DNA of 13,328 bases from Methanomassiliicoccales archaeon PtaB.Bin134 (GTDB lineage: Archaea > Thermoplasmatota > Thermoplasmata > Methanomassiliicoccales > UBA472). Under the pieces are notes generated by a model. The model was given only the letters and a program-made list of their open reading frames with translations, did not search any database and had not been told where the DNA came from. Where the stretch lies: NCBI GenBank assembly GCA_002067045.1, contig MVPZ01000186.1:1-13328 (forward strand), read 5' to 3'. Every line of letters starts with the position of its first letter. The stretch's first letter is position 1. The position numbers and the translations under genes are program-made. Positions 844-13,328 of the stretch are shown here, piece after piece.

Positions 844-901
844 CCCTCTCTCATTGAAGCTGCGGGCAATTAATACTTTGTTAATTAACAACCTAGGATT
901 T

Positions 902-910
902 GATTTATAG
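902..910. promoter_or_regulatory. Overlapping divergent TATA boxes
   Basis: The sequence GATTTATAG reads as a TATA-like element TTTATA on the plus strand and as CTATAAATC on the minus strand. On the plus strand the expected start about 26 nt downstream falls at about 931-935, at the first ATGs (926 and 932) of the glycosyltransferase. On the minus strand it would give a leader of about 35 nt ahead of the ACT gene, which has a purine-rich ribosome-binding site. A second AT-rich block, TTAATTAA, lies at about 880-890 and could also serve the minus strand. Confidence 0.5.
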
Positions 911-925
911 CCCAATTCCATATCG

Positions 926-1843
926 ATGGGTATGCCACCCGGCCCGAGGCCTTTCGCCGTCACGGTGAACTGGAACAGGGCGGACGACACCGTCGAGTGC
1001 GTCCGATCCCTCCTTCAGGGCAATCCAGGAACGGACGTGGTCCTGGTCGACAACGGGTCGGACGACGATTCCGTTAGGATGTTCAGGGCGAACTTCCCTG
1101 ATCTGAGGATACTTGAGAACGATAGGAACATGGGTTATGCGAAGGCGATAAATTCAGGGATCAGGAGGGCCCTGGACGATGGGGCCACCCATGTCCTGGT
1201 GATTAACAATGACGCCATAGCCCGGCCCGGCATGGTGAACGAGCTCCTGAGGGCCATCAAGGACCATCCCGATGCCGGTGTGGTCGGTCCCAAGATATTC
1301 TATTACGGCACCGAGGTGATGTGGTTCAATGGCGGTCATTTCAACCATGTCCTGGGTTTCTCCACTCATCCTCTGATGGACCGCATGGACGATGGCGGGG
1401 AACAGGACAGGGAAGTGGATTTCATCACCGGCTGCGCAATGATGATCTCGGCGGAGGCCTTCTCCCAGATAGGGCTCTTCGATGAGGATTTCGAGATATA
1501 CACCGAGGACCTGGACTTCTGCCTTCGGGCCCAGGATGCGGGGTTCACCACCTGGCTTGTCCCCAAGGCGGTGGCCGAGCACAAGGTCTCGCTGTCCACC
1601 GGAGTGGCCGGTTCAAATCTCATGACCCCGTACCGTTCGTATTACTATGGCCGCAACATGCTGCTCATGGTGTACAAGAGGAAGAGGGGGCTCAGTTTCA
1701 TCACCTGCTTCCTCGGTCAGACCATCATTCTGATCCCCTATTACCTCATGTTGATGGGGGTGCAGGGGACAAGAAGGTCCTTCCGACAGTACATGAGAGG
1801 GTACTTCCACGCCCTAAAGGGCATGGTGGACGGGAGGAACTGA
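926..1843 (+). CDS. Family 2 glycosyltransferase (WbbL/rhamnosyltransferase-like)
   Basis: 305 residues. An N-terminal GT-A fold covers about residues 9-225: VNWNRADDT (14-22), the nucleotide-binding VDNGSDDDS (41-49), NMGYAKAINSG (68-78), the metal-binding DXD equivalent NND (94-96), FITGCAMMIS (166-175) and the acceptor/base motif YTEDLDFCLR (192-201). These are the marks of GT2 enzymes that add a deoxyhexose or similar sugar to a lipid-linked or surface glycan. One membrane helix (about 257-277) and a basic tail follow, suggesting attachment to the inner face of the membrane. There is no ribosome-binding site; the TATA box at 902-910 predicts a leaderless message, and ATG 932 (two codons in) fits that spacing slightly better than ATG 926. 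First gene of an operon; the next starts 3 bp after its stop. Confidence 0.88.
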   Translation: MGMPPGPRPFAVTVNWNRADDTVECVRSLLQGNPGTDVVLVDNGSDDDSVRMFRANFPDLRILENDRNMGYAKAINSGIRRALDDGATHVLVINNDAIARPGMVNELLRAIKDHPDAGVVGPKIFYYGTEVMWFNGGHFNHVLGFSTHPLMDRMDDGGEQDREVDFITGCAMMISAEAFSQIGLFDEDFEIYTEDLDFCLRAQDAGFTTWLVPKAVAEHKVSLSTGVAGSNLMTPYRSYYYGRNMLLMVYKRKRGLSFITCFLGQTIILIPYYLMLMGVQGTRRSFRQYMRGYFHALKGMVDGRN

Positions 1844-1846
1844 ACC

Positions 1847-3256
1847 ATGTCCGGTTGGGACCGGATCCGATCCTTCATGGCTCCTACGCCCACATTGCTG
1901 CGGTTCATGCTCCTGGGCTTGGTGGTCCGCCTGTTGCTGGCCCCCTGGACGTCATTCCCTTATGACACCTATCCATTCTATGGTGCGGCGGTGGGCACCC
2001 TGGCCGGCATCGGCCCCTACGGAAATGTGCTGTACACTTATCCCCCCTTGTTCTCGGTGATGATGTATCCGCTGTTCGCGTTACTATCCCTGTTCATGGA
2101 CCCTGCCGAGTTCGGGGTCTTCCTCCCCTCAATGGTGGAGGTGTCGAGGGCCACCGGCATGCTGGTCCCGTTCGTCACATCTCCTCCCTTCAATCTGGTG
2201 ATGAAGCTCCCCTTGATCATGGGCGACCTTCTGGTGGGGCTCACCCTCTTCAGGACGATGAACCGATGGTCGGGGAGGGAGGCCGGGGAAAGGGCCTTTC
2301 TGGTCTGGTTCTTGAACCCCCTGGTCATCTTCATCAGCTCGATTCACGGGCAGTTCGACGTTCTGGCAGCCTACTGTGCTCTGCTGGGGGTGTTGGCTTT
2401 CATGGACCGTCAATACCTCTTCAGTGGGGCGGTCTTGGGGATAGGGGTCCTCCTGAAGATATTTCCTGCCTACCTGGTCGTGGCCCTGAGCATAGCGCTC
2501 CTGCTGGACATGATCAAGGATATGCGGCAGGGCGAGATCCTGAGGGCCCTCCGTCCAAGCCTCCTATTCGTCGCCGGAGGGGTGCTGAGCCTGCTGTCCG
2601 TGCTTCCTTTCCTGATGGGCTCCAGTTCCTTCCTTGATTACATTTTCCGCCGCGGGACCTATTCATCAGTGGGCGGAATGAACATCTGGTTCGTCTCTCC
2701 TCTGTTCAGCAGCATGGGGGACGGGGGAGGGGGTGAGGCCGGCATACCGTTCGGGACCATACTGCTGATCGCGGGAATCGTGATAACGGTCACTGCTTCC
2801 CTCATCCTTCTCAGGAAGGGCCGGGAGCGGGGGCGGCTGCTCCTCACCTGCACCGCCACAATGGCCCTGGTGCTGGTGACCCAATCGATGACCAATCCTC
2901 AATACATGATCTGGCTGTTCCCTTTCCTAATACTGACATCGGCCGAGCAGCCGCGCATGGTCCGCAAGGTGTACGCCCTGACCCTGATCGGGCTCCTCTA
3001 TCTGTTCAGCCTCCAATCCGGTTTCGTCTTCATCTATCCCCTGGCGCAATATGTGGGTTGGCCATCGGTCGAGTTCCTGAATGGAGGCATAGAGGCCTAC
3101 TTCATAGGCACCGGTCTGCAGAGGGCCATGATCCTCAGCGCCCTGGGTGGGCTGGGGTGCGTGGTACTAATAACTATCTTGCAACCCATCCGATCAGACC
3201 TCATGGAGAACGCCTTGGAACGCCTACGAAAATGGAGGGGTCCTCATGCGCAATGA
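1847..3256 (+). CDS. Polytopic GT-C-like glycosyltransferase (GT87/PIG-M style)
   Basis: 469 residues with about ten or more membrane helices. The first extracytoplasmic loop carries YDTYPFYGAAVG (39-50), with Asp40 in the place of the acidic residue typical of GT-C enzymes, followed by the family-like GIGPYGNVLYTYPPL (54-68). A second typical loop reads SIHGQFDVLAAY (165-176). Enzymes of this fold take sugars from polyprenyl-phosphate donors and transfer them on the outer face of the membrane; donor and acceptor here are inferred from fold and context, namely a DPM1-type synthase three genes away that could make the donor. A GGGAGG ribosome-binding site (about 1831-1836) lies inside the end of the preceding gene, 3 bp from which this one starts, so the two are translationally linked. 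Its end overlaps the next ORF by 11 bp. Confidence 0.8.
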   Translation: MSGWDRIRSFMAPTPTLLRFMLLGLVVRLLLAPWTSFPYDTYPFYGAAVGTLAGIGPYGNVLYTYPPLFSVMMYPLFALLSLFMDPAEFGVFLPSMVEVSRATGMLVPFVTSPPFNLVMKLPLIMGDLLVGLTLFRTMNRWSGREAGERAFLVWFLNPLVIFISSIHGQFDVLAAYCALLGVLAFMDRQYLFSGAVLGIGVLLKIFPAYLVVALSIALLLDMIKDMRQGEILRALRPSLLFVAGGVLSLLSVLPFLMGSSSFLDYIFRRGTYSSVGGMNIWFVSPLFSSMGDGGGGEAGIPFGTILLIAGIVITVTASLILLRKGRERGRLLLTCTATMALVLVTQSMTNPQYMIWLFPFLILTSAEQPRMVRKVYALTLIGLLYLFSLQSGFVFIYPLAQYVGWPSVEFLNGGIEAYFIGTGLQRAMILSALGGLGCVVLITILQPIRSDLMENALERLRKWRGPHAQ

Positions 3257-4196
3257 CCTCGTGCTGATTGCAGCCATAGTTGCCATGCTGCTCTGCTCCT
3301 CCCTTATGATAGGAGTTGGCGAACGGCCCTCCCTCGAGCTTCGGGCGGCCGTGGCCGGGGATGAGGTGGTCATCGATTACTCCATGCCCTCCTCCACCCA
3401 CGGCTACCGGGGGATGGTCGTTGCGGTTCCCATCTCACTCCATCGCCAGGATGACATCGCAGTGGTGACCACAGGGAGGGGGGGCCCCTTCAACAGCGAT
3501 CCCGCGAAGGTGCAGGGATTGGTGGACCATCTGGAGGCTGAGCTTGAGAACATAGGTTCGGACCTTGGGGTGCTCAAGGTCCCCGAGAGGGATCTGATCA
3601 ATTACATGGCCAAGGGGAACGGGACCATAGTGGTCTGCGGCTCCCTGGACCCGTCCCTTGCAGGTCCCATCGAGGACTGGGTGAGGGAAGGAGGGGTGCT
3701 CGTGGCCATTGGCCCCCTCTCCATACCATTCAATTGGCACGATGGCGGTCCTGGTATCAGGTACGAACCGCTAAGTTTCGATGAAACGGTCCTCGGGCAG
3801 GATGCTGGACTCGGATTGAGAACCGTCGCCCCGCCCATGGGAGTTGTCACGAAGGATGTGGATTCCCTGAACGGCACGGTCCTGGGCATCACCTATGCAG
3901 ATCTCACCACCATGGCCAGGATCCCATTCGGCTGCGGGGCCATACTGGCCTGCGGGGGCCCCCTGCTCGAGCCGTTCCGGGCCAGCATGGAGGACGTGAT
4001 GGCCTGGGACCTGGCCATATGTCTGTCCTTAGGGGCGCAATGGGCCCTTGACGGTCCCTTGCACCGTTACATCGATGTACCGTCCGGGGGATATCAGGGA
4101 AGGTTCACTGTTCCCGATAGCGACACTATCATGTCCATTGCCGCGTACAGTTTGAGCGACACCCAATACCTGTTCAGATGCCTGAGGATATCTTGA
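3246..4196 (+). CDS. Exported protein of unknown function, with GATase-like segment
   Basis: 316 residues, no family recognised. A single N-terminal hydrophobic helix (about residues 4-23) acts as a signal or anchor; the rest is soluble and extracytoplasmic. The segment around residues 60-160 alternates strands and helices and contains TIVVCGSLDPSLAGPIEDWV followed by REGGVLVAIGP. The W-V-x-x-G-G-hydrophobic pattern is common in glutamine-amidotransferase-like Rossmann domains of extracellular proteins; the resemblance is structural only. Two NGT sequons are visible. The ATG at 3246 lies 11 bp inside the preceding gene, so it belongs to the same operon. The stop codon abuts the stop of the convergent gene, and the protein ends in an unremarkable Leu-Arg-Ile-Ser, so loss of a C-terminal part cannot be excluded. 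Confidence 0.7.
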   Translation: MRNDLVLIAAIVAMLLCSSLMIGVGERPSLELRAAVAGDEVVIDYSMPSSTHGYRGMVVAVPISLHRQDDIAVVTTGRGGPFNSDPAKVQGLVDHLEAELENIGSDLGVLKVPERDLINYMAKGNGTIVVCGSLDPSLAGPIEDWVREGGVLVAIGPLSIPFNWHDGGPGIRYEPLSFDETVLGQDAGLGLRTVAPPMGVVTKDVDSLNGTVLGITYADLTTMARIPFGCGAILACGGPLLEPFRASMEDVMAWDLAICLSLGAQWALDGPLHRYIDVPSGGYQGRFTVPDSDTIMSIAAYSLSDTQYLFRCLRIS

Positions 4197-5306
4197 TCAC
4201 TTCTCTGGGATGGCGCTGCTGAAGGCGTTCCACAGGTAGGCCACTCCGAAACCAAGGAACATGGGCCAGGTCTGCACCGCGTACTGGTCCGAGAAGAACA
4301 TGTAGAATATGTAGAAGTTGACCAGGTAGCCTGAGAAGCCAGTGAACACCATCTTCATTCCCATTATCATCTTGTCACGGCGGCCATGGGTCATCATGAA
4401 CTTGTTGGCAACCACCAGGTAGGCCAATGCCAGAACGAAGGCCAGCACCGTGGAGGTCACGAAGTGGTCGTCGTATGCCACATCCAATGTGCCCATGAAC
4501 ACGAATGTGAAGGTCAGCCCCAGGACCAGGGCTGACAGGAAGCGCCCGAACATGTTGATGAAGAGGAAGTTCACCGCCACGGCGGCGGCCTTGCCCGCCA
4601 GCCCGCACTGCCTGAGTATGGACAGTATCACGCGAGAGGACAGCTTGGACTCCCCGCTGCGCCTCATGCTGAAGGGGAAGGCGACCTCCTCGACCCTGGT
4701 GTTCCTGGGCAGGTACTTGAGCAGGTCGAACAGGACCTTGAAGCCCTTCCTCTCGAAGCGATCCCCCGCCTCGGAGATGGTCCTCTGGCAGATGTCCGTA
4801 CGTCCGCCGAAGAAGCCGCTCATGGTGTCCTCTGAGGTGGGCTGGCGCATCACCCTCAGGTAGGCCGCGGCCAGAGCATGGGCGCCCACCGAGGCCAGCT
4901 TCCGGCCGAGGCCCAGGCTGTTCTTGTCCTCCCTAACGCCCACGGCCAGGTCCGCGCCGCCCTTCAGGCGGGCATGCAGCTCGCGGACGTACTCCGGCGG
5001 GTGCTGGAAGTCCGCGTCCATGACCACGTAGTAAGGGGTGCTGACGTTCATCAGCCCCTCCATGATGCTGGCGGTGAGCCCGCGGTCGTTCGGATCGCGG
5101 TTGAGTAGCCTGACCCTGGCGTTGGTGGCTGAGAACTCCCCCACCTTCTGCTGGGTGCCGTCCCTGGAATTGTCGTCGGCCACCAGGACCGATATCCCCG
5201 GGTACAGCTCGGTGAGGGTAGCCAGCATGTGCTGGATGTTCCCACCCTCATTGTAGGTGGGCAAAACAACTGTTAGGTCCTCAAACAACGACACTGAGCA
5301 TCCCAA
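4197..5306 (-). CDS. Dolichyl/polyprenyl-phosphate mannose synthase (DPM1-type) with membrane tail
   Basis: 369 residues. The GT-A domain (about 10-235) shows LTVVLPTYNEGGNI (11-24), VADDNSRDGT (42-51), the metal-binding DAD (97-99) in VVMDADFQHPPE, the DPM hallmark DTMSGFFGGR (160-169) and the GESKLS lipid-site motif (218-223). Four membrane helices follow (about 246-275, 283-303, 315-337, 343-362), a GtrA-like tail as in the archaeal DPM synthase from Pyrococcus. It transfers mannose, or a related sugar, from a nucleotide donor to polyprenyl phosphate on the cytoplasmic face, supplying GT-C enzymes such as the one at 1847-3256. The start is uncertain: TTG 5306 gives the longest form and lies 2-4 nt from the predicted transcription start; GTG 5294 (four codons in) also fits, and the only nearby ATG (5301) is out of frame. 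Divergent from the next gene. Confidence 0.87.
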   Translation of the reverse strand: MGCSVSLFEDLTVVLPTYNEGGNIQHMLATLTELYPGISVLVADDNSRDGTQQKVGEFSATNARVRLLNRDPNDRGLTASIMEGLMNVSTPYYVVMDADFQHPPEYVRELHARLKGGADLAVGVREDKNSLGLGRKLASVGAHALAAAYLRVMRQPTSEDTMSGFFGGRTDICQRTISEAGDRFERKGFKVLFDLLKYLPRNTRVEEVAFPFSMRRSGESKLSSRVILSILRQCGLAGKAAAVAVNFLFINMFGRFLSALVLGLTFTFVFMGTLDVAYDDHFVTSTVLAFVLALAYLVVANKFMMTHGRRDKMIMGMKMVFTGFSGYLVNFYIFYMFFSDQYAVQTWPMFLGFGVAYLWNAFSSAIPEK

Positions 5307-5330
5307 CTCTTAAAGTCAAGAATTATCAAT

Positions 5331-5340
5331 TATATTTATA
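5331..5340 (-). promoter_or_regulatory. TATA box for the DPM1-type gene
   Basis: On the minus strand the sequence reads TATAAATATA. Counting about 26 nt downstream places the transcription start near 5308-5310, immediately before the TTG at 5306, so the message would be leaderless or nearly so. Confidence 0.55.
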
Positions 5341-5393
5341 GATTGTCTAGAAAATGGGCCCTTGAGCATGGGGCAAGGCATCGTTCCTCGTCA

Positions 5394-5402
5394 TTATATA
5401 AT
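5394..5402 (+). promoter_or_regulatory. TATA box for the second family 2 glycosyltransferase
   Basis: TTATATAAT lies in an otherwise mixed-composition stretch. Its centre is about 28 nt before ATG 5426, which predicts a transcription start at about 5424 and a nearly leaderless message. Confidence 0.55.
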
Positions 5403-5425
5403 CGGAGTTTCTTCCATTCCCTGCC

Positions 5426-6319
5426 ATGCTGACCATTTCCGCCGGGGTATGCGCCTACAACGAGGAGATGAACATCCTCCGATGCCTGCGCTCCCTCAGC
5501 TCCCAGAGGCTTGACGGAAAGGAGCTGATCGAGGTGCTGGTGGTTTCCAGCGGCAGCACGGACCGCACCGACGAGATCGTTCGGGAGTATTCGCGGGCGT
5601 CCGATCCCCGGGTGAGGTTGATCCGGCAGGAAAGGCGGGAGGGCAAGAACTCTGCGGTCAACGCGTTCATCGGGGAGGCAAAGGGGGAGGTGCTGTTCCT
5701 GGCCAACGCCGACAACGTGATGGAGGAGGACACCTTCGACCTCATGGCCCGTCATTTCATGGACCCGGCCACCGGGATGGTGGGAGGGCGTCCGGTGCCT
5801 GTGAACGACAGGGGCACGTTCATGGGCTTCGCCTCCCATATGCTGTGGGACATGCATCACCGTCTCTCCCTCATCCACCCCAAGGTGGGAGAGATCGTGG
5901 CCTTCCGCAACACTGGGCTGCGCATCCCGACCGGGATGGGCAGCGACGAGGACCTCATCCGCCGGGAGATGGAGTCCCAGGGGCTCAGTGTGCTCTACGA
6001 ACCGTCGGCCATCATCCACAACCGGGGGCCTTCGACGCTTTCGGACTTCTTCGAGCAGCGAACCAGGGTGAACATAGGCGAGAGGTACATGAAGCGCTGG
6101 TTCGATTACGACATCCCCACCTGGGACAAGAGGTTCCTGATCAACGCCTGGCTCAGCTTCCTGAAGGACAACGCCGCCCATCCCCTGAAGATGGCCGGGG
6201 CCATGTCCATAGAGGCCTTCGCCAGGGCCTACGCCAGCCTGCACGTCCGACTGGACAAGGGGGACCGGGCCATATGGCAGGTGGTGGGCAGCACCAAGGA
6301 CGTTCAGAACAGGAAATAG
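5426..6319 (+). CDS. Family 2 glycosyltransferase (cytoplasmic GT-A)
   Basis: 297 residues of GT2 type. Visible motifs are SAGVCAYNEEMNI (5-17), the nucleotide loop VVSSGSTDRTDEI (39-51), EGKNSAVNAFI (72-82), the DXD-equivalent ANADN (93-97), the acidic acceptor motif GSDEDLIRR (172-180) and a QRTR element (211-214) in the position of the QxxRW motif of processive enzymes. There is no strong membrane helix, so it is probably soluble or loosely membrane-bound. Sugar and acceptor are unknown. It is transcribed from its own TATA box, divergent from the DPM1-type gene with 119 bp between the two starts, and probably works with it and with the 926-4196 operon on a surface glycan or lipid-linked oligosaccharide. 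The start ATG 5426 fits the promoter spacing, and homology begins within five residues. Confidence 0.86.
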   Translation: MLTISAGVCAYNEEMNILRCLRSLSSQRLDGKELIEVLVVSSGSTDRTDEIVREYSRASDPRVRLIRQERREGKNSAVNAFIGEAKGEVLFLANADNVMEEDTFDLMARHFMDPATGMVGGRPVPVNDRGTFMGFASHMLWDMHHRLSLIHPKVGEIVAFRNTGLRIPTGMGSDEDLIRREMESQGLSVLYEPSAIIHNRGPSTLSDFFEQRTRVNIGERYMKRWFDYDIPTWDKRFLINAWLSFLKDNAAHPLKMAGAMSIEAFARAYASLHVRLDKGDRAIWQVVGSTKDVQNRK

Positions 6320-6344
6320 ATGGGGAAAGGGTTTGGGGCGTCGG

Positions 6345-7553
6345 TCACCTCTTCCGGAACACCGCTATTCCGGCCAGGGCCACCAGCCCCACGGCCCCGA
6401 CCATCATCGCGATGCCCACGGGGGAGAGCAGTTCGGACATGGCGTCCAAGCCCTCCACGGTCACCGTGCCCAGGGTGTCGGCGGGCAGGTACACCAGCAT
6501 CTGCTGGACCTCCCCGTCATCGATCACCGTGTAGCAGGCCTCGTCCGGCTGTCCATAGAGCAGCTGCAGGGGGTCCGGCACGCAGCTCATGTCCCGGTCG
6601 TTGAGGCGGACCCGCAGACGGTCCTGGGACATGTCCATGGTGCCCGTCTCGGTGTGGATCAGCAGCAGGGCGCCCTGCCCGTTCTGGCCCTGGGCCTGCA
6701 GCTGGAACCTGTTCCTGATCACCTGCTGGACCTGGACCTGCAGCTCGCTGCGGTAGGAGACGGTATCGAAGATCCCGCCCTCCTGGCCGCCGACCAGGGA
6801 GACCTCCGCGGCCACCCGGCCGTTCTGTACCGCCTCCATCAGCACCTGCTCCATCCACTGGTGGCGGTGCTGGACCTGGGGCAGGAAACGGACCATGAGG
6901 TGCTCGGTGACGTTGCACGCGATCACCGTCCCGTCCACGGAGACCTCGAACGGGTCGTCAGAGGCCACCATCCCGCTGGAGACGCCATCGGATATCCGCA
7001 GCTGGTAGCTGAGGTTGCTGCTCTCGTTGAGCACCTTGCTCTCCACCACCATCATGTCCCCTGCCAATACCAGGGTCACGTTGGCGGGCTCGTCCACGAA
7101 CAGGTGGAACATGCCCGTGGGGTTGTCATGCATCACCGCGGTGAGGTTGCCCTCTTCCATCACGACAATGGAGCCGCGGGCCTCCACGCTCTCAGGCACG
7201 AAACCCTCGATGAGTATGCTGGCTATCAGGACCCTCTCCCCCTCCGAGGTGAAGAGCCCGTAATCGGATATCTCCCCGGTGTCCTCGTTCAGGGTGTAGA
7301 ACACGAACCCTCCCTGGCCGTATCCGTAGCTGTAGTTCATCTTGCCCATGAGGGACCGGTCCACGCCCTTCTGGTACATCTCGTCGCCATTGCCTTGGTC
7401 GGCGGGGTTCATGCCGCCGTCCTCGGACCAGGGGCCGTTCCCATGCCCGTTCCCGTTGCCGCTGTCGGCCAGCACTGGCGAGGCCAGCAGCACCAGGGAC
7501 GAGAGGAGGAGCAGCCCCCCCAATGCAAGGCTCAAGGCCTTGGTCTTGTGCAT
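6345..7553 (-). CDS. Exported, C-terminally anchored protein rich in N-glycosylation sequons
   Basis: 402 residues from the ATG at 7553; family not recognised. It has a signal peptide with a long leucine-rich core ending near PVLA-DSG, then a low-complexity GNGNGHGNG linker. A large extracytoplasmic region follows, and the protein ends in a membrane helix followed by FRKR, so it is displayed on the outer surface. Six N-x-S/T sequons are present (NYS, NLT, NVT, NES, NLS, NVT), fitting a glycoprotein and the neighbouring glycosyltransferases. The first half contains beta-rich repeats of the type GEISDYGLFTSEGERV; the second half is rich in Gln and Met. The start at 7553 is chosen over an upstream ATG (7574) because a near-perfect Shine-Dalgarno AGGTGATC lies just before it (7557-7564). 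It has its own upstream region with a tandem repeat (7600-7637). Confidence 0.75.
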   Translation of the reverse strand: MHKTKALSLALGGLLLLSSLVLLASPVLADSGNGNGHGNGPWSEDGGMNPADQGNGDEMYQKGVDRSLMGKMNYSYGYGQGGFVFYTLNEDTGEISDYGLFTSEGERVLIASILIEGFVPESVEARGSIVVMEEGNLTAVMHDNPTGMFHLFVDEPANVTLVLAGDMMVVESKVLNESSNLSYQLRISDGVSSGMVASDDPFEVSVDGTVIACNVTEHLMVRFLPQVQHRHQWMEQVLMEAVQNGRVAAEVSLVGGQEGGIFDTVSYRSELQVQVQQVIRNRFQLQAQGQNGQGALLLIHTETGTMDMSQDRLRVRLNDRDMSCVPDPLQLLYGQPDEACYTVIDDGEVQQMLVYLPADTLGTVTVEGLDAMSELLSPVGIAMMVGAVGLVALAGIAVFRKR

Positions 7554-7599
7554 ATTGATCACCTGAATGCCCATCCCCGGGGAGTGGTCATTAGGGTTT

Positions 7600-7637
7600 T
7601 GGTACGCTCCTCGAACCGGCTGGTACGGGCATCGAAC
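7600..7637. repeat. Tandem 17-bp repeat, 21-bp period, operator-like
   Basis: TGGTACGCTCCTCGAAC (7600-7616) and TGGTACGGGCATCGAAC (7621-7637) agree at 14 of 17 positions and lie exactly 21 bp apart, about two helical turns. Each copy is also an imperfect dyad: GGTACG, five bases, then CGAACC or CGAACT. The pair sits just upstream of the promoter position of the minus-strand exported protein and touches the marC stop codon. Confidence 0.55.
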
Positions 7638-8333
7638 TCACATGAGCAGGCCGGAGTCCTGCAGCACCCCGGCGAACTCAGGCAGGATGTCCTTGATCCC
7701 GTTGATGACGAACTGTATGGATATGGCCATGACCAGCAGCCCCATGAGCCTGGTGACCACGTTGCGCCCTCCCTCCCCCAGGAAGCGGTCCACCCGCTCC
7801 GAGTTGATCATCATCTGGAAGGACACAAAGATGGTCACCCCGATCCCTATGTAGACACCGGCCAGGGACATGGCCCCCAGCAACGCTCCGGAATTGTCCA
7901 GGCGGTTCATGGCCTCGGAGACCAGGACCACCACGGTGACGATGGTGCCGGGGCCGCTGGTGAAGGGAATGGAGAGGGGGATCAGGGCAATGTCCCTGGA
8001 GCGCCCCTCGGCCTCCGTTCCGCTGTCCTTGGGGTTGAGCATGCCCACCGCTGTACTGAAGAGCAGTATGCCCCCGGCGATGCGGAAGGCCCCTATGCCG
8101 AAGCCGAATATCTGGAACACCAGCAGCCCGGTTATGGCGAAGAAGACCAGGATCATGAGGGAGTATCGAACGCTCTTGGTGGCCACCGCCCTCCTCTCCG
8201 CGGAGGTCTTCCCCTCGGTCAGGGCGATGAAGATCGCGGAGGTGGAGATGGGGTTGGATATGACGATGATGGAGATGATCGAGGCCACGATTATCTCCAG
8301 GCCAAGCACGATATCGCTCATCGCCCTTTCCAT
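7638..8333 (-). CDS. MarC-family (UPF0056) integral membrane protein
   Basis: 231 residues with six predicted membrane helices, the usual size and topology of the MarC family. Diagnostic segments are SNPISTSAIFIALTEG (26-41), the FRIAGGILLFSTAVGML stretch (83-99) and IPLSIPFTSGPGTIVTV (118-134), the duplicated N-P and G-P-G motifs of the family. The function of MarC proteins is not established; the early link to multiple antibiotic resistance was not upheld, and a transport role is only inferred. ATG 8333 is preceded by GAGG at 8341-8344 with seven bases between; ATG 8321 four codons on is an alternative. It lies 84 bp upstream of the exported protein on the same strand, but the repeat between them suggests separate control. 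Divergent from the small membrane protein at 8414. Confidence 0.9.
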   Translation of the reverse strand: MERAMSDIVLGLEIIVASIISIIVISNPISTSAIFIALTEGKTSAERRAVATKSVRYSLMILVFFAITGLLVFQIFGFGIGAFRIAGGILLFSTAVGMLNPKDSGTEAEGRSRDIALIPLSIPFTSGPGTIVTVVVLVSEAMNRLDNSGALLGAMSLAGVYIGIGVTIFVSFQMMINSERVDRFLGEGGRNVVTRLMGLLVMAISIQFVINGIKDILPEFAGVLQDSGLLM

Positions 8334-8379
8334 GGAACATCCTCAATAAACAATTTCTCCTGTTCGACGGTTGAACCAC

Positions 8380-8390
8380 AACGAATTACT
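8380..8390 (+). promoter_or_regulatory. Weak TATA-like element before the small membrane protein
   Basis: The most AT-rich stretch between marC and the plus-strand gene is ACGAATTACTC. It lies about 28 nt before ATG 8414, at the spacing of the other promoters here. A short palindrome GGTTGAACC is found just upstream (8369-8377). The TATA match is poor, so this is tentative. Confidence 0.25.
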
Positions 8391-8413
8391 CCCTTCCGGG
8401 GAATAGCCCTCCC

Positions 8414-8677
8414 ATGGAGCCATGGGAGTTGGCCCTCCGGACCGTCCTTCTGGGACTCAGCTTGATCATGACCATCGTGGCCTTTCAGGCCAGGCGCAGG
8501 TCTGGAAGGGGAAGGATGACCTGGGTGCTTCTGTCCTTCGTCGCGTTCACCGTCCTGTCCGCGGCCGCCCTCCTGGGGGAGATGTTGGGCGATCCATCAT
8601 GGCAGCTCTCCAACAACCTGCTGGTGATACTGCTGCTGATCATCGGTGCGAACTACCTGGCGCTGCTCAGGGGGTGA
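8414..8677 (+). CDS. Small three-helix membrane protein (DUF7521-like)
   Basis: 87 residues with three membrane helices (about 5-24, 34-54 and 65-84) and a short basic loop ARRRSGRGR (26-34). Length, topology and the loop-then-helix pattern resemble the archaeal DUF7521 family, which I recall as often lying next to HTH regulators; that assignment is from memory and not checked. The function is unknown. No Shine-Dalgarno precedes ATG 8414, fitting a leaderless message. The winged-helix gene starts 32 bp before this gene ends, so the pair is probably co-translated and may form a membrane sensor plus DNA-binding partner, an inference from coupling only. Confidence 0.68.
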   Translation: MEPWELALRTVLLGLSLIMTIVAFQARRRSGRGRMTWVLLSFVAFTVLSAAALLGEMLGDPSWQLSNNLLVILLLIIGANYLALLRG

Positions 8678-9209
8678 GCTCGCGGCGGACCCCCTGGACC
8701 TGGAGAGCCGGAGGAGGATATTCGACCTCATCCGCTCCCGTCCAGGAACCTTCCTGAGGGAGATGGAGAGGGAGCTGGACATGCAGGTGGGCATGCTGTC
8801 CTATCACCTCAGGGTCCTGGTCGAGGCGGGCATGGTGCGCAGCGAGCCGGAGGGCAACCATGTGAGGTACTTCCCGGTGGAGGGCTTCATAATGGCCGAC
8901 CGCCGGGCCATGGGATTCCTGCGCAACCGTTCCACCAGGGGGCTGCTCCTCCACCTCCTGGACCGGGGAGAGGTGGGCTTCTCCGAACTCCTGTCCCTGG
9001 CCGGGCTGTCCAAGTCCACCCTGTCCTATCATCTGAAGAGGATGTCCGCGGCCGGCCTGATCTCGGTGACCAGGGGGGAGGCCATGACCGTACGCCTCTC
9101 CGACCCGGAGAAGGTGGCCAACCTGCTCGTCTGGGTGCGCGAGGACGTGGAGAGGGACGCCGTCGACTCCCTCATTCAGGTTTGGGACCGGCTGAGCAAG
9201 GGCCATTGA
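8646..9209 (+). CDS. Transcriptional regulator with two winged-helix (ArsR/MarR-type) domains
   Basis: 187 residues. The first winged helix covers about 17-85, with recognition helix VGMLSYHLRVLVEAG (48-62) and a wing ending HVRYFPVEGF. The second covers about 92-155, with recognition helix STLSYHLKRMSAAG (124-137) and wing ISVTRGEAMTVRL. The two halves share the L-S-Y-H-L core, suggesting an internal duplication. A C-terminal helix (160-187) may dimerise. Such double-wHTH proteins are frequent in Thermoplasmata and related archaea; the target is unknown. The only plausible start is GTG 8646, inside the preceding gene; the first in-frame ATG (8763) would cut into the first domain. It lies upstream of, and on the same strand as, the amino-acid importer, whose palindromic promoter is a candidate target. 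Confidence 0.82.
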   Translation: MRTTWRCSGGELAADPLDLESRRRIFDLIRSRPGTFLREMERELDMQVGMLSYHLRVLVEAGMVRSEPEGNHVRYFPVEGFIMADRRAMGFLRNRSTRGLLLHLLDRGEVGFSELLSLAGLSKSTLSYHLKRMSAAGLISVTRGEAMTVRLSDPEKVANLLVWVREDVERDAVDSLIQVWDRLSKGH

Positions 9210-9224
9210 GGTATACGTTCTCTC

Positions 9225-9271
9225 GAAAATCGTATTTTAATGGTCAAAATCACCAATATTATACGATTTTC
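9225..9271. repeat. 11-bp inverted repeat upstream of the ABC importer
   Basis: GAAAATCGTAT (9225-9235) is repeated as its exact complement ATACGATTTTC (9261-9271), with 25 bases between. The left arm also belongs to a near-palindrome AAAATCGTATTTT (9226-9238). The stretch follows the regulator stop by about 15 bp and could be an operator pair or an RNA hairpin at the end of the regulator transcript. Confidence 0.5.
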
Positions 9272-9282
9272 AATAATTGAAA
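9268..9282. promoter_or_regulatory. Perfect 15-bp palindrome, candidate operator
   Basis: TTTCAATAATTGAAA is a perfect dyad with 7-bp arms around a central A. It overlaps the right arm of the preceding inverted repeat and lies about 50 bp upstream of the importer TATA box, in a strongly AT-rich island within a GC-rich region. This position suits an activator or an upstream repressor site. Confidence 0.45.
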
Positions 9283-9331
9283 TACGAATTACTGCAAAAA
9301 ATGCACATAATGCGCACCAACGTGAAATAAG

Positions 9332-9367
9332 CTTTAAATCAAATCATGCTATGCATGTCAAATCATG
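9332..9367 (+). promoter_or_regulatory. Promoter of the ABC importer with palindrome and direct repeat over the start
   Basis: CTTTAAAT (9332-9339) is a good archaeal TATA box; its spacing predicts a transcription start at about 9362, three bases before ATG 9365. Between them lies the dyad CATGC-TAT-GCATG (9345-9357). The decamer TCAAATCATG occurs at 9339-9348 and again at 9358-9367, 19 bp apart, the second copy containing the start codon. A protein bound here would block initiation. Confidence 0.55.
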
Positions 9368-10219
9368 GCAGACGATACCGTTTCCAGTCAACCCGCTGAC
9401 GGCGGAGCCTCCCTTAAGAAGAAGGGGGGAAAGAAGAACATGATGATCATCGCCGCCGTGGTCGTGATCGTCGTGGCGCTTGTCGCAGTGGTTGTTTTGG
9501 GTGGTTTCCTCAACGAGGAGGAGTACGACAACGCCCTGGACAGGATCCAGAGCAAGGGCAAGATCGTGGTCGGGACCCAGGTCCCGTACCCGCCCTTCGA
9601 GAACATCAACGCTACCACTGACGAGCTCGAGGGCATAGACATCGAGATCATGGAGTATGTCGCCGCGGAGCTGGGCGTGACCGTCGACTGGCGCACCATG
9701 GACTTCGATCCCCTGTTCGCGGCCGTTCAGACCGGCCAGCTGGACTGCGCGATATCGTCCATAACCATCACCGCCGCCCGCGATGTGGTCAACGACTTCA
9801 GCATACCCTACTATGTGGCCAACCAGGCCGTGCTGGTCAAGAACTCCAGCACCATAGCCACCTTCGACGACCTGAACAACAGCGACCTGGCCACCCAGAC
9901 CGGCACCACCGGTCAGTGGTGGGTGGAGGAGAACCTCAGCCCTGTGAGCCACGTCAACCTCGCTGACGTTCCGGCGACCGTCCTGGGCGTTGAGAACGGG
10001 CAGTACGACGCGTTCATCGTGGACACCCCTGTGGCCGACAAGTACTCCAGCGACACCAGCTACAACCTGAAGGTCGCGTTCGTCATCTACACCCTGGAGT
10101 CCTACGGCATACTCATCCCCGATGGCGAGCCGGAACTGAAGGCGGCCATAGACGCAGCCATCGACAAGATGGTCGCCGATGGCACCCTGGATGACATACT
10201 GAACAAGTGGCTGCTCTAA
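9365..10219 (+). CDS. Amino-acid ABC importer, solute-binding protein (family 3), membrane-anchored
   Basis: 284 residues. A hydrophilic lysine-rich N-terminus is followed by one strong membrane helix (about 26-47) with no lipobox cysteine and no clear cleavage site, so the protein is probably tethered by an uncleaved helix. The periplasmic-binding-protein type 2 fold starts at GKIVVGTQVPYPPFE (65-79). Family 3 marks are EGIDIEIMEYVAAELG (89-104), the carboxylate-binding arginine in TAARDVVNDFSIPYY (Arg139), TQTGTTGQWW (177-186) and the amine-binding Asp220 in FIVDTPVA. It captures a polar amino acid; which one cannot be read reliably. It is first in an operon with permease and ATPase; ATG 9365 fits the TATA-box spacing. 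Confidence 0.9.
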   Translation: MADDTVSSQPADGGASLKKKGGKKNMMIIAAVVVIVVALVAVVVLGGFLNEEEYDNALDRIQSKGKIVVGTQVPYPPFENINATTDELEGIDIEIMEYVAAELGVTVDWRTMDFDPLFAAVQTGQLDCAISSITITAARDVVNDFSIPYYVANQAVLVKNSSTIATFDDLNNSDLATQTGTTGQWWVEENLSPVSHVNLADVPATVLGVENGQYDAFIVDTPVADKYSSDTSYNLKVAFVIYTLESYGILIPDGEPELKAAIDAAIDKMVADGTLDDILNKWLL

Positions 10220-10276
10220 GCTGGCCACAAACCCCTTCCCTTAAACTTTCTATAAGTAAAAAGCAGGTGCCGCAAC
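10220..10276 (+). promoter_or_regulatory. Spacer with possible internal promoter and ribosome-binding site
   Basis: This 57-bp gap between binding protein and permease carries a clear AGGTG ribosome-binding site (10265-10269) seven bases before ATG 10277. Upstream are two AT-rich elements, CTTAAACTTT and CTATAAGT, either of which could be a secondary TATA box. The gap contrasts with the 4-bp overlap of the next two genes and may let binding protein and membrane parts be made in different amounts. Confidence 0.35.
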
Positions 10277-10963
10277 ATGGCAATGACGATCGACTGGACA
10301 ATCATACCTGACTACTTCGACGTCTTTATGAAGGGGTTGGAGACGACCCTGATCATATCGATCATCTCCATCGTGCTGGGCTTCGTCGGCGGGATACTGA
10401 TCGGCATGTGCCGCATATCCAGGAACCCGCTGGTCTACGGCGCATCGACGGTTTACGTCGAGGCCTTCCGCGGCACGCCTCTTCTCATTCAGATATTCCT
10501 GGTCTACCTGGGCCTTCCCCAGATAGGCATCTACATAGACAGCCCCCTGGTGGCCGGCCTTATCGCCCTCTCCCTGAACAGCGCCGCGTACCAGTCCGAG
10601 ATATTCAGGGGCGGGGTGCAATCCATCTCCATCGGGCAGATAGAGGCCGCGCGTTCGTTGGGAATGACCTACAACCAGGCGCTGTTCAGCGTGGTGATCC
10701 CTCAGGCCATTCGCAACGCCATGCCTCCCTATACGAACGAGTTCATCACCATGATCAAGGACTCGTCACTGGTCATGACCATAGGCGTCCTGGAGCTCAC
10801 CCTGAGGGGCAAGCTCATCAGCGCCACCACCGGACAGTCCATACCCGTCCTTCTCTTCGTCGCGGTGCTTTACTTCGTCCTCACCTTCAGCACCTCGCGA
10901 ATCATGAGGTATGTGGAGAGGCGTTTCGCCATCCCGGGCATGATGGGGAGTGATTCCAAATGA
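10277..10963 (+). CDS. Amino-acid ABC importer, permease (HisM/GlnP type)
   Basis: 228 residues with about five membrane helices. The N-terminal [19 protein letters not shown] (17-35) and [14 protein letters not shown] (61-74) are typical of polar amino-acid permeases. The cytoplasmic EAA loop that docks on the ATPase is [22 protein letters not shown] (residues 108-129, quoted in two parts of a single motif ending in the invariant Gly). A single permease gene is present, so the channel is probably a homodimer. ATG 10277 is supported by the AGGTG ribosome-binding site; ATG 10283 two codons on is an alternative. Its stop overlaps the start of the ATPase gene by 4 bp (ATGA), so the two are translationally coupled. 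Confidence 0.92.
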
Positions 10964-11766
10964 CCGAGCCGATACTGGAGATAGTTGACCTCAAGAAGTC
11001 CTTCGGCGACAACCACGTCCTGAAGGGCATCTCCCTGAAGGTGATGCCCAAGGAGGTCGTCACCATCATCGGCCCCAGCGGCAGCGGCAAGAGCACCCTG
11101 CTGCGTTGCATGAACCACCTGAACCTGCCGGACAGCGGCAAGATAATATTCCAGGGGCACGACATCGGCGACAAGGAAATCGACATCAACGCCGTGCGCA
11201 CCCAGATGAACATGGTGTTCCAGTGCTTCAACCTCTTCATGCATCTCACGGCCAAGAGGAACATATCCCTGGCCCTCATGAAGGTCAAGAAGATGAACAA
11301 GACCGAGGCCGAGGAGCGCGCTCTCAGGGCCCTGGAGACGGTCGGGCTGAAGGACAAGGCCGACGCCTTCCCCGGGGAGCTCTCCGGGGGGCAGCAGCAG
11401 CGCGTGGCCATCGCCAGGGCCCTGGCCATGGACCCCAAGGTCATCCTGTTCGACGAGCCGACCTCCGCGCTGGACCCTGAGCTGATCGGGGAGGTGCTGG
11501 ACGTCATGAAGAAGCTGGCGAATTCTGGAATGACCATGGTGGTGGTGACCCACGAGATGGGCTTCGCCAGGGAGATGGCCGACAAGGTCATCTTCATGGA
11601 CCAGGGGGTCATCGCGGAGCAGGGGACGGCGGAGGAGATATTCGTCAACCCCCAGAACCCCCGCACCAAGGTGTTCCTGAGGAGGATACTGAAGGAGGTG
11701 GGGGCCATGGACCCCGGCATCCCCTCGGACTTCATGCCCAACGGCAACGGTCAAAGCAACCCTTAA
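10960..11766 (+). CDS. Amino-acid ABC importer, ATPase (GlnQ/HisP type)
   Basis: 268 residues, a complete ABC ATPase: Walker [10 protein letters not shown] (38-46), Q-loop Gln88 in MVFQCFNLF, signature LSGGQQQR (141-148), Walker [13 protein letters not shown] (161-172) and H-loop His198 in [20 protein letters not shown] and [17 protein letters not shown] are typical of the polar amino-acid subfamily. It powers import with the permease and binding protein. The residue after the Q-loop glutamine is Cys, where this subfamily usually has Gln or His; all catalytic residues are intact. The tail after about 245 ([11 protein letters not shown] and an NGNG end) is longer than in GlnQ and lacks known motifs. 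Its start overlaps the permease stop. The stop codon TAA (11764-11766) lies inside the TATA box of the following ilv leader. Confidence 0.94.
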
Positions 11767-11769
11767 ATA
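11762..11769 (+). promoter_or_regulatory. TATA box of the ilv leader transcript
   Basis: CTTAAATA contains the stop codon of the ATPase gene. Its centre is about 28 nt before ATG 11794, predicting a transcription start at about 11790-11794, so the first small ORF would be leaderless. The spacing matches the other TATA boxes in this window. Confidence 0.55.
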
Positions 11770-11793
11770 CGCCATCGGAAATACAAACGGACC

Positions 11794-11853
11794 ATGCACG
11801 CGCTTCGGACATCGACCGTCATTGTTCTGGTCCAGCGCGTCTTGGTCATCTGA
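11794..11853 (+). CDS. Branched-chain amino-acid leader peptide (19 aa)
   Basis: ATG to TGA encodes MHALRTSTVIVLVQRVLVI. Ten of 19 residues are Val, Ile or Leu, and nine of the last eleven. This is the composition of bacterial ilv leader peptides such as IlvL and IvbL, whose translation reports on charged branched-chain tRNAs. ATG 11794 lies where the TATA box at 11762-11769 predicts the transcript to begin, so initiation would be leaderless. Codons used (GTC, ATT, GTT, CTG, GTC, then GTC, TTG, GTC, ATC) cover all three amino acids. The ORF spans hairpin A, and its final codons form one arm of helix B, so ribosome position would change folding. Position directly ahead of ilvN and ilvE supports the role. 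No homologue was looked up; translation is inferred. Confidence 0.6.
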   Translation: MHALRTSTVIVLVQRVLVI

Positions 11854-11864
11854 AAGGGGAGCTG

Positions 11865-11903
11865 ATGGCTTTCCCGTTCATTGTGCGGATGGTATGTCAA
11901 TGA
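11865..11903 (+). CDS. Second small ORF of the ilv leader (12 aa)
   Basis: ATG to TGA encodes MAFPFIVRMVCQ. The purine-rich AGGGGAG at 11855-11861 is Shine-Dalgarno-like, but only three bases separate it from the ATG, closer than usual. Both this site and the start codon lie inside the 5' strand of helix C, so the ORF would be silent when C forms. Its TGA overlaps the ATG of the following ORF (ATGA at 11900-11903), the usual form of translational coupling. It may be only a re-initiation stepping stone; coding status is weakly supported. Confidence 0.3.
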   Translation: MAFPFIVRMVCQ

Positions 11904-12127
11904 GAATGTTATTGCTCGGTCTTATGGTGCTCGGCTCGGCCCGGGGAGGGGGGCGTCGCCCCAAGGTGATCAGCGGAAGCGACAGTCATCAGCTTCCCTG
12001 GCTATCCACTCCCAAGTATCCATGCGGACCGGACAACGGACGGAACGACGACGGCTACTACCAGCCCATAAAGAAGAACCACAGCGTCCGTAACTATCAG
12101 ATACCCATAAAGGGAAAGAAAAACTAA
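11900..12127 (+). CDS. Third small ORF of the ilv leader (75 aa), hypothetical
   Basis: 75 residues from the coupled ATG 11900; no family recognised. The start is leucine-rich: residues 3-11 read MLLLGLMVL, using the codons TTA, TTG, CTC, CTT and CTC. A glycine/arginine stretch follows (GSARGGGRRPK). The last 40 residues are polar and rich in Asn, Lys, Tyr and Pro, with the triplet PIK twice; the encoding CCCATAAAG is a 9-bp direct repeat at 12065-12073 and 12104-12112, 39 bp apart. Codon choice in this last part (AAG, AAC, GAC, TAC, ATA) is like that of neighbouring genes, which supports real coding. It ends 14 nt before ilvN, which has only a weak ribosome-binding site, so translation of this ORF could feed ribosomes to ilvN. 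The frame is also open upstream to a TTG at 11822. Confidence 0.4.
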   Translation: MRMLLLGLMVLGSARGGGRRPKVISGSDSHQLPWLSTPKYPCGPDNGRNDDGYYQPIKKNHSVRNYQIPIKGKKN

Positions 12128-12141
12128 GGACAGGGATCGAG

Positions 12142-12504
12142 ATGGAAGTCATATCGATGGTCGTGAACGACGAGTTCGGAGTCATGCAGAGGATCATGGG
12201 GGAGTTCACCCGGCGCAAGATCAACGTGGACACCATCGTGGTCGGAAAGTGCGAAATGCCCGGCAAGTCCAGAGTGGTCCTCAGCGTCTCCGACCGCAAG
12301 CAGGCCGAATGGGCTGTGGACAGCCTGCAGCGGCTGCACGACATAATCCACGCCGAGCTGGTGGACGAGACCCGGCAGGAAGGCTATGCCCTGGTGAGCA
12401 ACGGTGCGGGAAAGGCCCGGCTGATAGGGTCCAAGGAAGAGGTGGAGAAGATCCTGCAGGCCACCAACCCGGACCGCTTCATAAGAGCGGTGAACGCCAT
12501 CTGA
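12142..12504 (+). CDS. ilvN: Acetolactate synthase small (regulatory) subunit-like ACT protein
   Basis: 120 residues. The N-terminal ACT domain (about 1-72) aligns by eye with IlvN/IlvH: VVNDEFGVMQRIMGEFTRR (7-25), KINVDTIVVGK (26-36), SRVVLSV and a D-x-LQRLHDIIHAELVDE helix-strand end. In this family the domain binds valine and confers feedback inhibition on acetolactate synthase, the first shared step of Val/Leu/Ile synthesis. The C-terminal 45 residues do not resemble the second IlvH domain, so the protein is shorter than the usual archaeal or IlvH form of about 160. The large subunit is not next to it. The Shine-Dalgarno is weak (AGGA eleven bases before, or GGGAT four before the ATG). 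It is in an operon with ilvE, nine bases downstream, behind the leader. A free ACT sensor with another partner remains possible. Confidence 0.75.
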   Translation: MEVISMVVNDEFGVMQRIMGEFTRRKINVDTIVVGKCEMPGKSRVVLSVSDRKQAEWAVDSLQRLHDIIHAELVDETRQEGYALVSNGAGKARLIGSKEEVEKILQATNPDRFIRAVNAI

Positions 12505-12513
12505 GGGACCGAC

Positions 12514-13328
12514 ATGCAGAGCAAGATCTGGATGGACGGGCGGATGGTGGCGTGGGAGGACGCCAAGGTGCACGTGCTGGCCCACGGCTTCCATTACGGG
12601 ACCGGGGTCTTCGAGGGCATCCGCGTCTACCACACCCCCCAGGGCAAGAACGTATTCCGTTTGCGGGAGCACATGGTGCGCTTCCTGAACTCGGCCAAGG
12701 TGCTGCAGATGAAGGTGCCATACTCCCTGGACGAGCTGTGCGAGGCCTGCCGGGACGTGGTGCGCACCGCCGGTCCCGAGGGCGACTACCTCCGGCCGAT
12801 AGCCTTCTACGGGGTGCATCCCGAGTTCAAGATCGGGCTGAACCCCAGCAGGCTGGGCACGAACGTGAGCATCATATGCACGCACATGGGCGTTTACATG
12901 GGAAAGGACCAGGTGGAGCAGGGGGCCAACATAATCACCTCCTCCTGGGAGAAGTACTCCAATAGGGCCGCGGCACTGAACGCCAAGGTCTGCGGGCACT
13001 ACGTGAACTCGGTCATCGCCAAGCTTGAGGCCATCCAGCAGGGCTGCGACGAGGCGCTCATGCTCAATGCCAACGGCACCGTGGCCGAGGGCACCGGGGA
13101 GAACGTCTTCATGGTGAAGGGCGGCCGGCTGCTCACCCCTCCGGTGTCCGCAGGGATCCTGGAGGGCATCACCAGGGACTGCGTCATGACCCTGGCCAGG
13201 GACATGGGCGTGGAGGTGGTGGAGAAGGACATCACCCGCTCCGAGCTGTACATGGCCGACGAGGTCTTCATGACCGGCACCGCGGCGGAGATCTCCCCGA
13301 TACGCGCGATCGACAACCGGCTGATCGG
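12514..13328 (+). CDS. ilvE: Branched-chain amino-acid aminotransferase, 3' end outside window
   Basis: 271 codons are visible and the frame is open to the right edge; the usual length is about 300, so about 30 residues are missing. Fold-type IV PLP aminotransferase: HVLAHGFHYGTGVFEGIR (20-37), YLRPIAFYG (92-100), the Schiff-base lysine Lys158 in ALNAKVCGHYVNS, EALMLNANGTVAEGTGENVF (180-199) with the phosphate-proximal Glu193, and EVFMTGTAAEISPI near the end. The HVLAHGFHYGTGVFEGIR opening and the NAK-x-x-x-x-Y-x-N-S lysine site are those of IlvE rather than D-amino-acid transaminase or 4-amino-4-deoxychorismate lyase. It performs the last step of Val, Leu and Ile synthesis with glutamate as amino donor. 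ATG 12514 follows the ilvN stop by nine bases, with GAGGG as ribosome-binding site. Confidence 0.95.
   Translation, partial: MQSKIWMDGRMVAWEDAKVHVLAHGFHYGTGVFEGIRVYHTPQGKNVFRLREHMVRFLNSAKVLQMKVPYSLDELCEACRDVVRTAGPEGDYLRPIAFYGVHPEFKIGLNPSRLGTNVSIICTHMGVYMGKDQVEQGANIITSSWEKYSNRAAALNAKVCGHYVNSVIAKLEAIQQGCDEALMLNANGTVAEGTGENVFMVKGGRLLTPPVSAGILEGITRDCVMTLARDMGVEVVEKDITRSELYMADEVFMTGTAAEISPIRAIDNRLI

Follow-up and report, generated by a model that had tools for sequence, protein, structure and literature searches.

The window analysed here, i.e. the whole stretch of 13,328 nt, comes from Methanomassiliicoccales archaeon PtaB.Bin134 (GCA_002067045.1, contig MVPZ01000186.1, positions 1-13,328, forward strand). 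The closest named IlvN proteins to the one it encodes are from Methanomassiliicoccales and the genome is therefore archaeal, a point that the original prediction had left as a condition. A short leader ORF is located in the window between an ABC transporter operon and genes for branched-chain amino acid synthesis, with the following features:

9365-11766: family-3 solute-binding ABC transporter operon, directly upstream of the leader
11762-11769, + strand: TATA-like box CTTAAATA, the best TATA-like 8-mer, overlapping the stop codon of the upstream ABC-transporter ATPase gene
11790-11804, + strand: 5′ arm of helix A in the MFE fold, start region of the leader ORF
11794-11853, + strand: leader ORF MHALRTSTVIVLVQRVLVI, ATG plus 18 codons plus TGA, read directly from the DNA
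11834-11847, + strand: 3′ arm of helix A in the MFE fold, 3′ part of the leader ORF
11857-11875, + strand: predicted GC-rich hairpin B GGGAGCTGATGGCTTTCCC, directly after the leader stop codon
11894-12127, + strand: orphan conserved small-protein ORF of about 77 codons (ATG at 11894 or 11900), between the leader and ilvN
12142-12504, + strand: ilvN-type acetolactate synthase small subunit (ACT_AHAS_ss 58.1 bits, cut-off 27)
12514-13328, + strand: ilvE, branched-chain aminotransferase, truncated by the window end (NF005146 368.8 bits, cut-off 279)

The best NCBIfam models for the window ilvN are also acetolactate synthase small subunits, yet its scores are under their cut-offs, while ilvE also matches TIGR01122 (354.8, cut-off 245.55). 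It had been claimed that ilvN and ilvE are the next full genes after the leader; the order ilvN-ilvE stands, but the orphan ORF intervenes and ilvE runs off the window. The stop codon of the orphan ORF ends 14 nt ahead of ilvN, and its protein of about 77 aa has 19 relatives, called "hypothetical protein" where named, with the conserved pattern LPWLSTPKYP..DNGR.D.GYY.PIKK and no match to a Pfam family. Unrelated short ORFs ending at or beside the ilvN start were seen by eye in two other loci (L009 and L025). All three genes of the ABC transporter operon are also found upstream of ilvN in seven loci where ilvN is the first gene (L001, L002, L003, L005, L010, L013 and L014), two of the three are present in L016, and more distant relatives of these genes lie ahead of ilvB in L012.

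Direct reading of the DNA bore out the 19-codon ORF at 11794-11853, whose peptide ends in VIVLVQRVLVI, with V, I or L at nine of the last 11 residues, as well as its start where the TATA box predicts the transcript start, CTTAAATA being located 32 nt ahead of the ATG. The TATA-to-start distance is nearly constant among related leaders, with a median of 31 nt both ahead of ilvN (n = 21, range 16-34) and ahead of ilvB (n = 19, range 10-36), and with a spacing of about 31 nt the predicted transcript start therefore falls at, or a few nt from, the leader ATG. The earlier binomial estimate of about 3 in 100,000 for one given 11-codon stretch was reproduced (3.3e-5). Nevertheless, the single window ORF is not significant genome-wide, because in the related genome G002 at least two of 674 TATA-adjacent uORFs (among the best 45 of the 674) reach 9/11 V/I/L and precede genes that are neither ilvN nor ilvB. 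That the window ORF is more than a chance occurrence is a conclusion drawn from the comparison of sequences between relatives. It is richer in V/I/L than its counterparts in ten near relatives (7/11, mostly with D at codon 9 and G at codon 18), and codons 10 (ATT), 11 (GTT), 13 (GTC) and 17 (TTG) are invariant across the 11 near sequences, window included.

For the comparison ahead of ilvN, a leader was defined as an ORF of 13-32 codons starting with ATG or GTG, with a TATA box 26-37 nt ahead and at least five V/I/L in the last 10 codons (hereafter the ilv rule), a definition that was fixed only after the first leaders had been inspected. We gathered 80 ilvN loci, in 66 of which ilvN is the first gene and has at least 150 nt upstream; one further locus had less than 150 nt. 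The original prediction had called for a V/I/L-rich ORF with drifting sequence upstream of ilvN in relatives. This holds in the nearer relatives, since the 14 of 66 loci that satisfy the ilv rule are all 14 of those with an IlvN identity of at least 65%, but not in the distant ones, where none of the 52 ilvN-first loci with an identity of 58% or less has a leader ORF by this rule. Many of these 52 are labelled Methanomethylophilaceae or Methanoplasma, or come from gut or rumen samples. The peptides drift strongly in sequence, as seen in MGALSICTDIVLVQRVLGI, MRAAALPGVIVQVLRALGV, MRSTAACKIIVLLVSERYVVI, MCSAAPRSVIVVYVSGQLVI, MSSLAVSPGGNSVLVSLRILVI and MSSPAAYQVSSGVVSLQVLVI. A second search returned 30 ilvN loci, 11 of which were viewed (upstream DNA amounted to 9 nt in one, and ilvB lay immediately before ilvN in three), and a V/I/L-rich ORF was present in seven of the 11, including MSFAALRSIIIVMVSGKLIV and MLSVAQTPVLIVVVEQLVLGI, with L306 among the seven repeating L006.

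Leaders also precede ilvB and leuA, those of leuA being Leu-rich, which extends the leader reading beyond what had been predicted for the window. Where ilvB lies directly before ilvN, a leader is found ahead of ilvB in all 10 loci with an upstream region (eight by the ilv rule, L018 and L024 by eye), three more such loci being left out for want of that region. For stand-alone ilvB genes, 20 loci were fetched and nine viewed, one of which (L221) has 11 nt upstream; a Val-rich leader, mostly with a GTG start, is found in all eight viewed loci with upstream DNA (seven by rule; L229 by eye, with a TTG start), for example MSNVRTSVPVVLLGLGVVVVI, MRTHITCSGRLDVLVGTVIVVLG and MSNNNTGETTSMLLPLLTLIVVL. 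The leader in L218 has an additional in-frame ATG seven codons upstream. In a phylum-wide sample of 30 ilvB loci, 17 were viewed, three of which have a leader by rule (L271, which is the locus of L071, L272 and L273) and 14 have no such ORF by rule. The gap between the uORF and ilvB is 45-63 nt.

Some ilvB loci showed further peculiarities. Tandem ilvB genes occur in G011:C15 (L217 and L229), G096:C1 and G130:C7, and the two copies in G011 are each preceded by a candidate V-rich leader, of which the second is the one with a TTG start found by eye. In L021, L022, L024 and L061 a strong Shine-Dalgarno sequence (GGAGGT) is followed by an aligned ilvB start at ATC or ATT, reading IRGSE or IRGSK where other loci have MRGSE. 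Three codons before the aligned start L061 has an in-frame GTG; the other three loci have no canonical start from the Shine-Dalgarno sequence to the aligned ATC or ATT. From the alignment it is possible that AUC or AUU serves as the start codon of the archaeal ilvB in these loci.

In regards to leuA, the gene for the 2-isopropylmalate synthase of about 540 aa (NF002085 above cut-off for L082), a short ORF was found by eye ahead of the gene in 20/20 loci, with a Leu-rich run in 14 of them (e.g. MNDWRPDLLLLLRLVPVSSL, MRQSIFIGELLLLH, MVTIYDVPDILLL and MSGSKSHNAILSLLLLLLG). The remaining six (L081, L083, L085 and L088-L090), which include the nearest relatives of the window, have just two adjacent Leu codons. 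A rule set afterwards (at least three Leu in the last 10 codons, TATA box 40-52 nt ahead) is satisfied by 11/20 leuA loci versus 1/716 genes of G002. The TATA-to-start median of the leuA uORFs is 48.5 nt, and by eye most have their own Shine-Dalgarno sequence of the GAGG type. Ten group-B PF00682 loci (L101-L110) served as the negative set, in which L104 shows a Leu-rich ORF in a loose scan without TATA check.

The statistics were done on 60 leaders (21 ilvN, 19 ilvB and 20 leuA) that had been chosen by eye from the scans and then placed uniquely in the DNA; L018 and the ilvB leader of G002 are outside this set. A short ORF in the 5′ leader of the cognate biosynthesis gene is thus found for ilvN, ilvB and leuA, and the codons of the end product are enriched in a pathway-specific manner, as seen from a frame control, a V:L contrast and a scan of 716 genes. 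The V/I/L fraction in the last 10 codons in frames 0, +1 and +2 is.68,.17 and.21 for ilvN,.65,.17 and.15 for ilvB, and.56,.15 and.17 for leuA. The V:L ratio is 130:85 in the ilv leaders versus 12:64 in the leuA leaders (Fisher 7e-12). Compared with 604 upstream regions of G002, the V/I/L counts of the best ORFs are higher (p = 1e-14, 3e-13 and 7e-11 for ilvN, ilvB and leuA, respectively), but these and the other p-values given here are too small, because the leaders were selected by eye, with rules that were defined afterwards, and the related loci are not independent. Leader codons favour GTT, ATT, TTG and CTT relative to the G002 gene average. Codon bias was dropped as evidence for leaders, because the V/I/L-rich upstream ORFs that occur by chance in G002 also favour GTT and ATT; the only feature of it that stands out is the absence of ATA (0/75 Ile codons in the last 11 leader codons).

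The cleanest test of enrichment is the scan of the single genome G002, where nine of 716 genes with at least 100 nt of non-coding upstream DNA satisfy the ilv rule. Seven of these nine are not ilvN or ilvB, as would be expected if short V/I/L-rich ORFs were simply common and ours had been selected by eye. Also, when 10 genes that follow other TATA-adjacent uORFs of G002 enriched in particular residues (Phe, His and others) were looked up, none matched an amino-acid biosynthesis model, seven matching models outside amino-acid biosynthesis and three matching nothing. However, only three ORFs in the scan have at least 6/10 V/I/L and two of these three best matches precede acetolactate synthase genes, namely ilvN (7) and ilvB (6), and the pattern recurs locus after locus in the nearer relatives and ahead of ilvN, ilvB and leuA across genomes, so that chance as the explanation is scarcely credible. 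The composition of the peptides bears on another explanation, by which the ORF is the gene of a small hydrophobic (membrane) peptide with a function of its own and its position before the ilv genes is coincidental. The C-terminal halves are indeed hydrophobic, and translated small ORFs have been reported by Ribo-seq in M. mazei (PMC11456600). Against this, the peptides are almost wholly different between clades, are only 13-29 residues long, change from Val-rich before ilv genes to Leu-rich before leuA, and are present as a separate copy for each of ilvN, ilvB and leuA, which makes a membrane peptide very improbable.

Other amino-acid genes did not yield comparable leaders. A TATA-linked V/I/L-rich ORF was absent ahead of ilvD in 18 loci viewed (L254 was probably shown in another frame), and no uORF with a cognate run was found in 14 loci of prephenate dehydratase (longest frame, the wrong one in at least L344 and L350) or in 14 loci of ilvC (wrong frame in L361; ilvC is often behind ilvB). 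In the trpE set, where L244 and L248 have almost no upstream DNA and L246 is the wrong gene, a uORF with one Trp codon was found in 4/13 loci (L237-L240, L238 by eye). These were not counted as Trp leaders, because a similar RRDLF-type element recurs before another gene without Trp. The underlying AGAAGGGATTTA(C/T)TT-like stretch recurs near gene starts and reads RRDLLW, RRDLFI or WDLFI in one frame; it is found upstream of trpE in L237-L240, where it contains one Trp codon, and upstream of the gene next to hom in L371, L373, L374, L376, L377 and L381.

At the RNA level, a predicted hairpin with a dG of -9 kcal/mol or lower that starts within 4 nt of the uORF stop (hairpin B) is found in 18/21 ilvN and 17/19 ilvB leaders (35/40), compared to 25/400 control uORFs of G002 and to 33/210 and 21/190 shuffles of the same sequences, and by the same definition in 3/20 leuA leaders. 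When the arms were swapped against those of diverged loci, the own arms paired better in 8/10 ilvN clusters (p = 0.024; 12/21 by locus) and in 14/17 ilvB clusters (p = 0.0013; 16/19 by locus). In a nine-row ilvB alignment, both sides have changed in three of the eight pairs, and pairing holds in 80.6% of the cells versus 38.9-59.7% when slid, although the -1 slide nearly equals the covariation score. Helix A is formed in the ilvN leaders between the start region and the 3′ end of the uORF, where the own partner is better in 21/21 loci (four clusters); as its arms in the window lie at the ORF start and in the 3′ part, codons 10-13 would there be placed in the loop. It is weaker in the ilvB leaders (14/19 loci, 6/11 clusters, p = 0.12), and in leuA the uORF start region tends instead to pair with a motif after the stop (16/20; 8/11 clusters, p = 0.06). 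In an Rfam search of window positions 11700-12200 with E up to 10, three matches were returned, all far under their gathering scores, and 15 loci searched at the gathering threshold gave none.

Such strong and conserved structures could also point to an element in the RNA or DNA to which a regulatory protein binds, the V/I/L-rich ORF being incidental or secondary, and there is a precedent in the actinobacterial LEU element, in which codon changes are described as having little effect (PMC1262725). A protein-bound element would however leave without explanation the V/I/L richness in one frame alone, which is kept while the sequence changes, the shift from Val to Leu between ilv and leuA, and the ORF start at a near-constant distance from the TATA box, and we consider it quite improbable.

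The structures also speak to how the position of a ribosome could be read out. The attenuation by leader peptide that had been proposed for this locus is supported by the drifting V/I/L-rich ORFs of the nearer relatives, but a terminator-based output is not, since hairpin B is not followed by a consistent U-run: in the 10 nt after the hairpin (in some leaders after a second small hairpin) the U count is 0-6, mostly with no run. Classical transcription attenuation is for this reason not established. An amino-acid-sensing uORF that acts by bacterial-type attenuation with a terminator would fit the resemblance of helix A to a 1:2 hairpin and the U-rich exceptions (L322, L013 and L014 after hairpin B; L062, with U7, after the stop). 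Moreover, transcription and translation are coupled in archaea, which would permit such a mechanism. On the other hand, most leaders have no U-run after hairpin B, the classical 2:3 antiterminator pairing is not above swapped or shuffled partners, and only 45-63 nt separate the uORF from ilvB, so that a terminator-based mechanism seems unlikely. Two translational readouts lack consistent support as well. The cost of opening the downstream start, compared between a ribosome at the stop and one stalled on the first cognate codon, shows no consistent effect over the 60 leaders (mean difference in kcal/mol, real versus spacer-shuffled: 1.27 versus 0.60 for ilvN, 0.05 versus 0.01 for ilvB and -0.77 versus -0.11 for leuA), and pairing of the post-stop region with the Shine-Dalgarno sequence is about equal to that of shuffled sequences and is unsupported in the ilvN, ilvB and leuA classes. 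Among the pairings modelled, no alternative partner emerged for the two supported structures, helix A and hairpin B.

Taken together, the ORF at 11794-11853 probably is a cis-acting leader peptide that senses the supply of branched-chain aminoacyl-tRNA, with the state of hairpin B setting downstream expression. This reading builds on a conserved ORF with a pathway-matched codon bias, on the near-constant TATA spacing, on hairpin B in the ilv leaders and on helix A in the ilvN leaders; from these we infer that the leader is translated, that ribosomes stall on it and that it mediates induction in starvation. In the proposed mechanism, a ribosome would load on the 5′ end of the transcript, or very close to it, and read the Val, Ile and Leu codons. 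With ample charged tRNA it would reach the stop codon and cover the base of hairpin B, while with scarce charged tRNA it would stall on V or I codons well before the stop, so that helix A is opened and hairpin B can form; such an arrangement would amount to a simple sensor of charged Val- and Ile-tRNA. How far the small ORF, ilvN and ilvE are expressed would then depend on the state of hairpin B, with higher expression in starvation, and in the window this output would reach the small ORF at 11894-12127 first. The same design would apply to the Val-rich peptides before ilvB, and a related Leu-rich version to leuA. We also lean, if only slightly, towards a wider proposal, in which at least three separate archaeal branched-chain amino acid transcription units (ilvB, ilvN-ilvE and leuA) would carry leader peptides that sense ribosome position, each tuned to its own amino acid, with nearly leaderless ilv transcripts and a terminator-free readout where the hairpin abutting the stop reports the finished peptide.

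Leader-peptide attenuation is textbook bacterial regulation, and to our knowledge there is no established archaeal case. The leaders described here precede three kinds of genes in one archaeal order and a few neighbours, and comprise dozens of natural variants, whose divergence makes a ribosome-mediated coupling of amino acid supply and expression directly testable in archaea. They suggest that archaea, as bacteria do, let the ribosome itself sense amino-acid shortage. Amino-acid-sensing leader peptides would be new for archaea, although the class of mechanism is known from bacteria. The leader peptides of the E. coli ilvGMEDA, ilvBN and leuABCD attenuators abound in the amino acids that their operons produce; the archaeal leaders share this, and their helix A is positioned as a 1:2 hairpin, but they are without a consistent 3:4 terminator with U-run and without a supported 2:3 antiterminator. 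Among the open-access papers listed by full-text searches, we found no leader peptide of an archaeal amino-acid operon. The uORF4u paper makes the general statement that archaea, too, are regulated by uORFs, with no archaeal example alongside it (PMC10219788), small ORFs in 5′ UTRs are reported in the Ribo-seq study of M. mazei, in whose main text the word "attenuation" is absent (PMC11456600), and attenuation of IlvBCD expression is touched on in general terms in a 2026 paper about the production of valine by Methanothermobacter (PMC13158618).

The position of a ribosome within the uORF is also thought to rearrange the RNA ahead of the gene in ermC (PMC10219788), and the archaeal leaders resemble this type of translational attenuation, except that the proposed signal would be aminoacyl-tRNA instead of a drug and that sequestration of the Shine-Dalgarno sequence is unsupported. 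Like the LEU element at actinobacterial leuA, the archaeal leuA leaders have a uORF with a Leu run directly ahead of the gene; however, for the LEU element a pseudoknot is described in which the Leu codons and the Shine-Dalgarno box of leuA form the base stem (PMC1262725), whereas the pairing that is repeated in the archaeal leuA leaders is between the uORF start region and the post-stop motif. The ilvB leaders resemble those of Corynebacterium, Mycobacterium and Streptomyces, where a short ORF with runs of Ile, Val and Leu codons also lies ahead of the gene. Codon substitutions in Streptomyces are reported not to fit classical attenuation (PMC1262725), which is a caution for the archaeal leaders too. 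The actinobacterial ilvB leaders overlap terminators with poly-U (PMC1262725), while the archaeal hairpin lies after the stop with no consistent U-run, and the host is an archaeon with a TATA promoter. Finally, the ilvB leader peptide of Corynebacterium is reported to be formed without a ribosome binding site, according to the title of a reference cited in PMC13158618, just as would be expected for a leaderless uORF. If the reading proposed here is true, neither a TATA promoter nor a near-leaderless mRNA nor an archaeal ribosome stands in the way of this design.
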